Positions 13,375-37,511 of a stretch of 41,757 nucleotides of DNA are shown here, piece by piece. Source of the DNA: Lachnospiraceae bacterium (GTDB taxonomy: Bacteria; Bacillota; Clostridia; Lachnospirales; Lachnospiraceae); assembly GCA_014804615.1 (NCBI GenBank), contig JAAUZL010000010.1, positions 22,884 through 64,640 on the forward strand, written 5' to 3'. How positions within the stretch are numbered: position 1 is the first letter of the stretch; each line of letters starts with the position of its first letter. A program made the translations under genes and the position numbers. The notes beneath the pieces were generated by a model that was not told the DNA's origin, ran no database searches, and saw only the letters and a list, made by a program, of their open reading frames with translations.

Positions 13375-14878
<1,504 letters not shown>

Positions 14879-15003: not shown

Positions 15004-15072
15004 AATAGACTTATAATAGACATGAAATTTTACAGGTAGTATAGATGCTGAATCCTTAAGATAATGCTAGAA
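15004..15072 (+). repeat. Noncoding direct repeat, copy 1
   Basis: The first 18 bases (AATAGACTTATAATAGAC) are identical to 15887-15904, and the next about 50 bases, including CTGAATCC, align without gaps at roughly three quarters identity. The two copies bracket the toxin-antitoxin locus. The block sits in an AT-rich stretch (14946-15117) with no gene. Confidence 0.75.
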
Positions 15073-15117
15073 GGTGTGAAAGATCGTGTGAGAAAGTAAC
15101 ATATACCAATAAAAAGA

Positions 15118-15146
15118 TTGACTAAGATATGGGAATTGCGTATACT
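15118..15146 (+). promoter_or_regulatory. Promoter of the type III antitoxin-toxin locus
   Basis: TTGACT (15118-15123), 17-bp spacer, TATACT (15141-15146); each hexamer matches consensus at five of six positions. Transcription should start near 15152, just before the repeat array. Confidence 0.75.
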
Positions 15147-15187
15147 ATAAGTGAGCAAAGCGATTTGTTCGGCGCGAATAACGCCCA

Positions 15188-15314
15188 GAATATTATTCAC
15201 TTGTATGTATGGTCTCCGTGAATGACGGGACTTGAATGTAGAATATCATTCATTAGTATGTTTAGTCTCCGTGGGTGACGGGACTTGAATGTAGAATATC
15301 ATCCATTAGTATGT
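15188..15314 (+). repeat. Tandem array of 53-nt antitoxin repeats
   Basis: Unit 1 is 15188-15240, unit 2 is 15241-15293, and a 21-nt third piece is 15294-15314. Units 1 and 2 differ at seven of 53 positions. Two of these (GAATG versus GGGTG) fall in the loop of the predicted hairpin while its stem is unchanged. The third piece runs into the terminator. Confidence 0.85.
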
Positions 15315-15316
15315 GC

Positions 15317-15347
15317 ATGAGCCGCCGATGAGGCGGCTTATGTTTTT
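15317..15347 (+). terminator. Terminator between antitoxin repeats and toxin gene
   Basis: AGCCGCC (15320-15326) pairs with GGCGGCT (15332-15338), extended by three weaker pairs, followed by a T run. In type III loci this partial terminator sets a high antitoxin RNA to toxin mRNA ratio. Confidence 0.9.
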
Positions 15348-15361
15348 AGGAGATACAAAAG

Positions 15362-15817
15362 ATGCAGATAGTGTCAGTTGACAAAGATTTTTTTGCTAAA
15401 TGTAAAAAGTACGGAACAGACAGGGAATTACTTTATGACAAACAGGGAAGACCGTGTGTTTTGATTGTCGATCTGGTATATAAAGGACAGAAGCACACGT
15501 TTGTAGTGCCTTTGCGTTCTAATATAGCTAAAAATGTACCCAAAAGTCAGTATTTTCCTTTACCTCCAAATGTGTCTACGCAGCCGGGAAAAAGGCACGG
15601 AGTGCATTATATTAAATTATTTCCGATGGATAAAAAATATGTGCATCCATATAAAATATCGCAAAGTGCATATCTGGTAATGGTAAAAAGTATTTTGGAT
15701 AAGAATGAGAGCAAGATTATAAATGATTGTCAGATCTATCTGAATGAATACGAAAAAGGACATGGCAGTTCCATGACGCCGGACATAGATGGAATATTGT
15801 CTTGGTTATATGGTTAA
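15362..15817 (+). CDS. Type III toxin of the ToxN/AbiQ family (CptN/TenpN-like endoribonuclease)
   Basis: This 151-residue protein has the length of ToxN-family toxins. Its strands CVLIVDLVYKGQKHTFVVPL, then a basic loop and YFPLPP, followed by RHGVHYIKLFPMDKKYV and a C-terminal helical part with ILDKNESKIINDCQIYLNEY, fit the ToxN/AbiQ compact beta-barrel with surrounding helices as I remember it. The strongest evidence is the layout upstream: promoter, tandem RNA repeats, terminator and an AGGAG RBS. ToxN enzymes cut mRNA and are held inactive by the repeat RNA; several give phage resistance by abortive infection. I infer the same role here. It is more AT-rich than the flanking housekeeping genes, suggesting transfer. 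The alternative is an unrelated small protein downstream of a structured RNA. Confidence 0.78.
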   Translation: MQIVSVDKDFFAKCKKYGTDRELLYDKQGRPCVLIVDLVYKGQKHTFVVPLRSNIAKNVPKSQYFPLPPNVSTQPGKRHGVHYIKLFPMDKKYVHPYKISQSAYLVMVKSILDKNESKIINDCQIYLNEYEKGHGSSMTPDIDGILSWLYG

Positions 15818-15886: not shown

Positions 15887-15955
15887 AATAGACTTATAAT
15901 AGACAAAAAATCTTGAAAGTAGCATAAATACTGAATCCATAAGACAAGGCTATGA
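15887..15955 (+). repeat. Noncoding direct repeat, copy 2
   Basis: This is the partner of 15004-15072, starting 70 bp after the toxin stop. The first 18 bases are identical and CTGAATCC is kept. Unlike copy 1 it is not followed by a TTGACT/TATACT promoter. The stretch 15818-16138 otherwise holds only a terminator and the next gene's promoter. Confidence 0.75.
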
Positions 15956-17689: not shown

Positions 17690-17890
17690 TGCTTACATGT
17701 TTTGACTGGCGTGATGAATGATTTAAATAATTGAAAAATATGCAAAGCTTTAGTATGATAACAAATAATAGCTTGATTTATATTAATAAAGTGTGAGGGA
17801 TGAGGAACTGCTGGAAATGAGCAAGGAAATGTTAAAAGGTATGATTGAGTTGGCATCAGATGAAGGCGTAGGGTATTGTGTATGATTAGA
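17690..17890. other. AT-rich spacer without a recognisable gene
   Basis: A frame of about 30 codons (17788-17885) ends at TGA and includes MSKEMLKGMIELASDEGV, but it has no clear RBS and no recognisable homolog, so I do not call it a gene. No promoter or hairpin is convincing here. Confidence 0.4.
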
Positions 17891-17951
17891 GGCTTGATGT
17901 AGAATATCGTCTATCAGTATGTACATGAGCCGCCGATAAGGCGGCTTATGC
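17891..17951 (+). pseudogene. Decayed copy of the type III antitoxin repeat and terminator
   Basis: GGCTTGATGTAGAATATC and CAGTATGT.CATGAGCCGCC repeat, with few changes, bases about 15281-15326 of the intact locus. The terminator hairpin (17927-17945) is preserved with the same stem and a GATAA loop. The similarity continues through GATACAAAAGAT.CAGAT, the toxin RBS-to-start region. The toxin start codon has become ATA, the AGGAG is gone, and no toxin frame follows. Only one partial repeat remains and no promoter is visible. Confidence 0.75.
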
Positions 17952-18011
17952 TATTTAATAGATACAAAAGATACAGATTTTATTATACTTTGTTAAGTAG
18001 GGGCAGAATTT

Positions 18012-36488: not shown

Positions 36489-37511
36489 TTATGCTTGATG
36501 CCATTGGTTTTGATCCGGCAGTTTTGCTATGGCAAATCCCATAAATACCAGAGTGATGACAATCCTGATATAGTAGGGCACTGCGAAGGTCCCGACAGGA
36601 ATGATACTCAGAACTGTCGCCACCGTGAACATCAGCACTTTAGCATATACTGCCGCTCTGTACAGCGCTTCTGCCGGCAGCTGCTTTTTCATAATGCCGG
36701 CAATGGCCAGCCCGAATAGCAGATAGATTGCCGCACACAGGAAATACCAGAGAATTCTTCCTATAAAGAAGATGATATATCCCACTATGATAAAGAAAAA
36801 TATCATAGGCACTAATGTTTCAACGATCATGTCTCTGCTGATATCCGTAGTGGCATTGCTGAAATCAAACTGTTGGTACTCTCCGTTTTGCATGAACGAA
36901 AGTCCATCCCGGCCTACCAGTATGATTTCCTTATAGCCCTCGCCCATGAGCATAGAGGCATCGTCATAAGAAAAATCACTGATATCTTCTGTCACATATA
37001 CGAATATTTCGCCTTCATCATACAGGAACTCTTCCTCGAGATACAGCCGGCCATTCTTTACCTCAAAATCCGGCAGCTCGTTTATCCAGCCTTTTATATC
37101 GAGAGACGCAAATATGATCGTAAAATGAACAAATGAGATAATGGTTGCGATCAGAGCCAAAAGCGTCACAAACCCGATCATGCTTCCGGTCTTGACCTTC
37201 GTCAGCCTATTGTACTGGGGCGGTATGAAGGAAAGAACAAACTGCTGAAAGATGTTGGGGGCTTTCTGTTGTTCTTCGGGATTGCCGCCGTAATTTCCAT
37301 AACCGTTATTCATGTAAGGACCTGACTGTTGATAAGGATTTTGCTGATAAGGATTGCCCTGTTGGTAAGGGTTTCCTTGCTGCTGGTAGGGATTTCCCTG
37401 TTGGTAAGGGTTCCCTTGCTGTTGGTAGGGATTGCCCTGCTGCTGGTAGAAATTGCCCTGCTGATAAGGGTTTCCCTGCTGCTGATTGTAATTGTTGTAG
37501 TTGTTGTCCAT
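36489..37511 (-). CDS. DUF1189-like membrane protein with prion-like GNPYQQ repeat head
   Basis: The 340-residue protein has two parts. Residues 1-80 are a low-complexity head made almost only of Asn, Gln, Pro, Tyr and Gly: the six- to seven-residue unit GNPYQQ(Q) is repeated about eight times. Residues about 90-340 form a membrane domain with hydrophobic segments near 110-133, 232-255, 262-280 and later; the loop between the first two is acidic and extracellular. That domain resembles DUF1189/YIP1-like proteins of Firmicutes. The head should lie in the cytosol and is the type that can form condensates. ATG 37511 has GGGAGGAAAAA upstream. The biological role is unknown. Confidence 0.75.
   Translation of the reverse strand: MDNNYNNYNQQQGNPYQQGNFYQQQGNPYQQQGNPYQQGNPYQQQGNPYQQGNPYQQNPYQQSGPYMNNGYGNYGGNPEEQQKAPNIFQQFVLSFIPPQYNRLTKVKTGSMIGFVTLLALIATIISFVHFTIIFASLDIKGWINELPDFEVKNGRLYLEEEFLYDEGEIFVYVTEDISDFSYDDASMLMGEGYKEIILVGRDGLSFMQNGEYQQFDFSNATTDISRDMIVETLVPMIFFFIIVGYIIFFIGRILWYFLCAAIYLLFGLAIAGIMKKQLPAEALYRAAVYAKVLMFTVATVLSIIPVGTFAVPYYIRIVITLVFMGFAIAKLPDQNQWHQA

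Follow-up and report, generated by a model that had tools for sequence, protein, structure and literature searches.

A probable TenpN-related type III toxin-antitoxin module of a Lachnospiraceae bacterium, with covarying pseudoknot antitoxin units that also occur alone in viral contigs

A stretch of 41,757 nucleotides (nt) from the genome of a Lachnospiraceae bacterium (assembly GCA_014804615.1, 3.63 Mb in 29 contigs; contig JAAUZL010000010.1, positions 22,884 to 64,640), hereafter the window, contains a compact module in which a repeat RNA and a terminator precede a gene of 151 codons. We consider it very probable that this module is a chromosomal type III toxin-antitoxin system of a TenpN-related branch, whose toxin would cut the precursor RNA between antitoxin units, be held inactive by the resulting pseudoknots and be freed when the antitoxin is lost. 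The gene order, the predicted toxin fold, the covariation of the pseudoknot and the wide conservation of the module are results of the present analysis. The module is a TenpN-related variant that is distinguished by a covarying pseudoknot, mostly present without repeats at the DNA level, and by lone copies of this pseudoknot in phages. A preliminary description of the locus was correct on the kind of system, as indicated by the order of the parts, the predicted toxin fold, the profile kinship with TenpN and the covarying antitoxin, and wrong on what is unusual about it.

All parts of the module are encoded on the + strand, downstream of a gene (13532-14878) that we take to be that of glutamate dehydrogenase, and the positions originally given for them are accurate to a base or two. 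The sigma-70-like promoter of the antitoxin-toxin transcript, TTGACT-17-TATACT, is present as described (15118-15146, 10 of 12 consensus matches) but is plausible rather than proven because the scan yields 12 promoter-like sites compared with 5.8 (standard deviation 2.6) in shuffled sequences; a similar site precedes the first unit in close relatives (L011 and L015 among those viewed; L numbers are our handles for loci). The reported 2.4 tandem repeats of 53 nt were recovered by TRF (period 53, 2.4 copies, 89% matches, 15187-15314) and include two full antitoxin units (15211-15258 and 15264-15311), whereas a third, diverged leader unit upstream of them (15172-15198) had been overlooked. The strong intrinsic terminator noted at the antitoxin/toxin boundary is likewise there (15315-15347; a hairpin of 12 bp spanning 15315-15343, with U's behind it; -22.5 kcal/mol, z -5.6), although a simple consensus scan of the window does not list it, and so are the ribosome-binding site AGGAG (15348-15352) and the open reading frame (ORF) of the toxin (15362-15817), a TenpN-related, predicted ToxN-fold endoribonuclease of 151 amino acids (aa) according to its profile kinship and predicted structure.

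Sequence covariation identifies each antitoxin unit as a predicted H-type pseudoknot with a covarying second helix, a structure that is new here. The first core unit of the window consists of helix P0 (GTC/GAC), a bulged T, helix S1 (CCG/CGG), helix S2 (GAATGA/TCATTC), a loop L2 of 17 nt and the 3' tail ATTAGTA; the second has the same fold with GGGTGA/TCATCC as S2, and the leader unit comprises S1 (GCG/CGC), a one-nt loop L1, S2 (GAATAA/TTATTC) and the L2 sequence CCAGAATA. The two full units had been said to differ in the loop of a hairpin whose stem is kept. The difference is real (GAATGA to GGGTGA), but this loop would pair with a downstream segment that has changed with it (TCATTC to TCATCC), a double change affecting both strands of the pseudoknot-forming helix.

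The evidence for this structure comes from 76 loci, namely the window, 68 genome loci, 5 viral loci and 2 plasmid loci; the sequence preceding each match was taken to a maximum of 450 nt, a length not available in 8 of the 76. The set excludes L010 (Apilactobacillus) as well as L001-L007 and L079, which for the most part duplicate named loci. Units were collected with patterns that fix S1 and a GAATA anchor and leave the second helix free, so that no S2 pairing is demanded; the resulting list replaced an earlier, loosely selected one. A unit with paired S1 and at least five S2 pairs is present in 74 of the 76 loci, the patterns finding none in L055 and L058 (138 nt available). S2 is complete, with six pairs, in 65 of the 71 distinct core units and has at least five pairs in 69; the two that fail are Enterococcus middle units misparsed by the pattern and were excluded from later counts. 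In terms of individual cells, S2 is paired in 414 of 426 in the core units, compared with 79.5% when the 3' strands are redealt, and in 246 of 270 in the 45 distinct short leader matches, compared with 62%; 40 of these leader matches form all six pairs, the other five being apparent chance matches or misparsed longer leaders.

For the covariation alignment, units with an L2 of 17-21 nt were selected from the 71 and near-copies removed, leaving 38. The full structure comprises P0 of 3 bp, a bulged U, S1 of 3 bp, L1 of one nt, S2 of 6 bp and this L2; 99.6% of its cells are paired, with 94 double-change cells compared with 27 in shuffles; the covariation score was reached by none of 500 shuffles, and partners slid out of register pair in at most 49% of cells. 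A nested two-hairpin fold favored by the energy model was rejected: on the same 20 units it is 69% paired without double changes, compared with 100% and 17 for S2. In some relatives (L034, L043), L2 appears on reading to carry an extra hairpin. No Rfam family (release 15) matches the antitoxin region of the window (15100-15400) up to an E-value of 1.

Two of the analyses proposed in the preliminary description gave positive results, the pseudoknot being conserved and covarying across relatives and the 151-aa protein being predicted to adopt the ToxN/Kid fold. The relationships of the toxin were analyzed with an alignment of 42 members of the branch, comprising the window protein and 41 of 46 intact full-length proteins after removal of near-copies (49 of 73 loci were inspected for intact proteins, and loci with stops or cut ends were omitted). 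The NCBIfam model NF047358 (TenpIN) matches 41 of the 42 at E ≤0.1 (best 3.7e-13), compared with weak matches of NF047359 (CptIN) to 15 at the same threshold (best 5.7e-4; no match to the window protein at E 1), matches of the AbiQ model to 7, and a single weak match of PF13958 (ToxN_toxin; 4.9e-4). The hhalign ranking places TenpN as the nearest profile kin among ToxN, CptN and TenpN, with CptN second, and in the tree TenpN and this branch group against ToxN and CptN (support 90/94, on long branches), with the six TenpN sequences placed within the branch with weak support; the core motif VPLRSNI is common to both. A sequence search of the Protein Data Bank (PDB) with the window protein detected nothing significant, and the profile search gave CptN at E 0.28. 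Among Pfam models, PemK/MazF comes nearest to the window protein (E 0.24); this, along with the terminator located between the RNA and the gene and the cis-regulatory classification in Rfam of RF02920, an RNA that precedes a CptN-like gene, would be compatible with a type II-like toxin of the MazF/Kid family behind an unrelated leader, the repeats then being a cis-regulatory RNA (attenuator or riboswitch); we regard this explanation as very improbable. As a side observation, the same genome as the window (G000) encodes a true ToxN (153.9 bits; L120, C3:48108-48599) and a ToxN fragment on its contig C25.

Several observations weigh against the assignment of the module to a TenpN-related type III branch. 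The window protein scores 30.9 bits with NF047358, short of the curated cut-off of 90, and does not match PF13958 at E 1, so that the domain originally named for the toxin is not supported. No unit is found upstream of the toxin in L010, the one Apilactobacillus locus that was read, and an intact toxin ORF of the branch (L055:2184-2630) has no recognizable unit in the 450 nt upstream. Among five measures of covariation, one, the count of pair types, fails to exceed shuffles (178 of 500 as high; 500 of 500 on the 20-unit set), and the folding energies of the single units of the window are weak evidence (z -2.65 and -0.16, from a program that scores no pseudoknots). Finally, 14 viral loci hold both the unit and the toxin and, because of this, the module may also work on behalf of phages or prophages.

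Given the kinship with TenpN, the module could simply belong to the published TenpIN family, without any distinguishing feature. TenpIN systems (Photorhabdus, Fusobacterium) share with it the order of repeat RNA, terminator and toxin, the VPLRSNI motif and the repeat length: of the six aligned TenpN loci, five have repeats of 50-57 nt and L082 has a degenerate one of 51, a Fusobacterium vincentii TenpN locus has the same period of 53 as the window module, and Table 3 of PMC6315513 lists tenpIN 144/53 and 158/55. These values also dispose of the earlier suggestion that a 53-nt period could mark a new subtype. However, apart from the low NF047358 score, pairwise BLASTP of the protein against a true TenpN yields only a 9-residue match besides noise; the TenpI units of L092 and L100, in which an H-type topology can be drawn by reading, share this topology and no visible unit sequence; and a TRF repeat (period 40-130) is detected in only 11 of the 76 branch loci. 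We consider it unlikely that the module is an unremarkable TenpIN and retain the interpretation that it represents a TenpN-related variant. Other known systems differ as well: CptIN (Eubacterium rectale, PDB 4RMO), second by profile, has a CptI of 45 nt, and ToxIN and AbiQ, whose profiles match few branch members, have units of 34-36 nt according to the relevant part of PMC5086642. Among the 68 loci with 450 nt available, the patterns detect two good units in 36, one in 19, three in 12 and none in 1. Because the published type III criteria, as given in section 17 of PMC5086642, require a tandem array, most of the branch would probably fail them, suggesting that surveys that demand a tandem repeat miss most of these systems.

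The branch is widespread, being represented, by record titles, in Clostridia, Bacilli and Coriobacteria, on plasmids and in viral contigs. The scan of genome contigs identified 68 loci under titles including Lachnospiraceae, other Clostridia, Collinsella, Slackia, Olsenella, Paenibacillus, Brevibacillus and Halanaerobium, among others; the closest toxin loci come from metagenome-assembled genomes of Lachnospiraceae. Toxin relatives are also encoded on 8 Enterococcus faecalis plasmids (typed as conjugative) and 16 Apilactobacillus plasmids, and five viral contigs with such relatives were reached by protein alignment; the window protein alone as the query had no viral or phage match. Within the source family, 7 of 299 genomes carry the toxin, the own genome included. 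A search of the same 299 genomes with model R1, which was built solely from toxin-linked units and assigns 61.5 and 60.5 bits to core units 1 and 2 of the window, produced matches in 11: all but one of the seven toxin genomes (the exception has its toxin 155 nt from a contig end), L324, the lone units L327 and L329, and two weak matches (L330, L331) that look like chance. By eye, the L327 unit consists of a leader and a core unit with a hairpin behind, and neither L327 nor L329 has a toxin profile match on a 3-kb stretch.

Under the proposed mechanism, a single promoter would produce a short RNA of three pseudoknot units, the terminator would let a minor share of transcripts reach the toxin gene, and constant transcription would keep the pseudoknots in excess. 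The toxin, as a ToxN/Kid-fold endoribonuclease, would cut the precursor between units, and the excised pseudoknots would bind it and keep it inactive. Loss of the antitoxin supply, for instance by phage shut-off of host transcription, would free the toxin to cut cellular and phage RNA; for ToxIN, such release of the toxin by transcription shut-off is described in part of PMC10853763. By analogy with known type III systems such as ToxIN and CptIN, catalysis, processing, inhibition and an anti-phage role are the most likely properties of this module. Internal units continue after the 3' strand of S2 with ACnTGTATGTTT, and in last units ACnTGTA is retained and what follows it is variable: TGTATG is found in 42 of 64 internal tails and 8 of 74 last tails, compared with 47 of 64 and 55 of 74 for TGTA. 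Judging from this pattern, the processing site is most likely situated in the linker between units, directly behind (U)GUA. With cleavage behind UGUA, the 3' end of the product would be an A, like that of ToxI and CptI, which, according to parts of PMC8860590 and PMC4627078, end in A with a cyclic phosphate.

Antitoxin units of the branch also occur alone in viral contigs. Viral contigs were scanned with the pattern TCCG-N6-ACGGG-N8-30-TAGAATAT, and the lone units were counted from its matches, those of the leader pattern not being included. The scan produced 67 matches in 64 contigs, of which 46 have all six S2 pairs, one has five and 20 have at most four; P0, one base of which is fixed by the pattern, is complete in 42 of the 46 fully paired matches and in 4 of the 20 poorly paired ones (toxin-linked viral units are included). 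Because S2 and P0 intactness split together, the matches divide into real units and chance matches. The 43 viral loci with a perfect core unit comprise the 14 mentioned above, whose retrieved sequence includes the branch toxin, 2 with a CptN-like toxin accompanied by its own RNA, and 27 in which none of four toxin profiles matches. A whole-record search detected the branch toxin in none of these 27 records, for which IMG/VR completeness is not given and some of which are fragments of 5-15 kb, whereas vipetofem (L158) is a complete genome; the same search detected the toxin in all five toxin-bearing positive controls. The 27 records contain 22 distinct unit sequences, and lone units score 37.6-66.4 bits with R1. 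By reading, L177 has a lone unit before an integrase-like ORF; the viral contigs may include prophages.

A natural experiment is provided by six closely related Enterococcus phages, to which the comparison was confined (the more distant Planchet, TJE4 and 9183 were left out). In vipetofem, VFW, vB_EfKM29 and vB_EfaS_140, one unit occupies the intergenic region that follows the major head gene; the vB_EfKM29 annotation places a short hypothetical ORF across it. No unit is present in VPE25 and nattely, whose sequences show 98.6% and 92.8% identity to that of vipetofem across the 95% of the surrounding 1.2 kb that aligns; the alignment of five of the six phages contains a single gap of 63 or 60 columns, extending from about 13 nt before the unit to about 2 nt after its tail. 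The vipetofem stretch is matched by eight E. faecalis plasmids (identity 91.2% over 57 nt or 94.3% over 53 nt; E-values of 1e-13 to 4e-13), the same eight that bear the toxin, and vipetofem is recorded with E. faecalis as its host; 9-15 nt of the preceding linker are part of the match, which ends about 4 nt short of the tail end. Relative to vipetofem, the other three unit-bearing phages have a T to C change in S2 that turns a G-U pair into G-C. The gap and the plasmid match would fit acquisition of one antitoxin unit by a phage, the presumed direction of transfer. The 3' tail of the phage unit is ACTCTTA, compared with ACTTGTA or ATTTGTA in the plasmids; this counts against full mimicry and could weaken processing. 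Queries with other lone units returned, variously, vipetofem and two 23-nt Streptomyces phage matches, nothing, or only the known Enterococcus phages, and thus no further named phages with the unit; Staphylococcus phage matches of 22-28 nt were taken as chance.

The most likely function of the lone viral units is that of natural decoy antitoxins that would be cut from phage transcripts. Alternatively, they could be relics of lost modules, or unrelated RNAs that perform some function for the phage. Such an origin would agree with L324, where a unit adjoins an apparent toxin remnant (by eye; no toxin profile match at E 0.01), with the altered tail of the Enterococcus phage unit, with the prospect that some viral records are prophages or fragments, and with the company that the units keep: in an Rfam scan of the 22 lone-unit sources (E ≤0.5 in the first run, ≤0.1 in the others), 9 have tRNA genes and 3 another small RNA above threshold. 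The latter are skipping-rope in L163 (47 nt from the unit, 66 bits), abiF in L172 (about 230 nt, 38.5 bits) and drum in L181 (about 340 nt, 54.7 bits); below threshold are skipping-rope in L149 (29.9 bits) and Fusobacteriales-1 in L168 (40 bits), which overlaps the unit itself. Against this alternative, the viral units keep S2 and P0 intact; 8 of the 22 distinct lone units are followed within 90 nt by a terminator-like hairpin (by our own criterion), compared with 2.8% of random positions; and the Enterococcus phage unit matches toxin-bearing plasmids of the recorded host and is present or absent as a cassette. On balance, the relic explanation seems a minority possibility, and we favor decoys. 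A broader proposal, that phages of several lineages carry complete single-unit decoys against this branch, which have been transferred as cassettes of some 60 nt to intergenic positions (behind the major head gene, in clusters of tRNA genes and small RNAs, before a CptIN module), that small-RNA clusters may be antitoxin islands against RNA-controlled defenses, and that skipping-rope and drum may be further decoys, has in our estimate somewhat less than an even chance, its probability being reduced because a companion above the Rfam threshold is found in only 3 of the 22 sources.

In two loci (L139:3490-4294 and L192:794-1596), a lone branch unit directly precedes a CptI-like RNA and a CptN-like toxin. 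The RNA in these loci matches RF02920, Fusobacteriales-1, filed as cis-regulatory by Rfam (L139:3613-3730, L192:916-1033), which, because of its position before a CptN-like gene, is probably the CptI antitoxin.

Elsewhere in the window, a degenerate second-copy remnant on the + strand (17890-17990; 89% identity over about 46 nt; 19.8 bits, E 0.011) comprises the end of an antitoxin unit, a terminator and the toxin leader with an altered toxin start, without the toxin gene; by eye, it is preceded by a stretch resembling the 3' end of the dehydrogenase gene (17861-17990 in all). Direct repeats (82%) lie on both sides of the module (15004-15069 and 15887-15952), and the segment 15947-15965 behind it resembles the 3' end of the dehydrogenase gene at 14850-14868 (74% over 19 nt). 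On reading, the module of L012-L014 also appears downstream of a dehydrogenase-like gene. Insertion may take place at the 3' end of the dehydrogenase gene. Short tandem repeats with periods of 21, 39 and 60 occupy 37342-37484.

Phage mimicry of a type III antitoxin is already known: according to the portion of PMC3475682 that describes PhiTE, this phage encodes a stretch resembling the antitoxin (pseudo-ToxI) and escapes by RNA mimicry, and hijacking from a plasmid was seen once. By the same account, wild-type PhiTE has 1.5 repeats and no full pseudoknot RNA and had to expand, whereas here complete single pseudoknots are present in 22 distinct viral sequences, natural isolates among them. In the open-access literature as far as covered, which does not extend to the 2012 type III classification, neither this RNA nor natural single-unit phage decoys are described; PMC8040213 (in part), which surveyed human microbiomes and lists candidate RNAs by the thousands, may include this RNA in its tables. 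The present analysis adds to the type III systems a widespread branch with a strongly covarying antitoxin fold that has no Rfam match. It also ties the module to phages, given that natural isolates that differ by one unit make wild-phage RNA decoys against type III systems directly testable.
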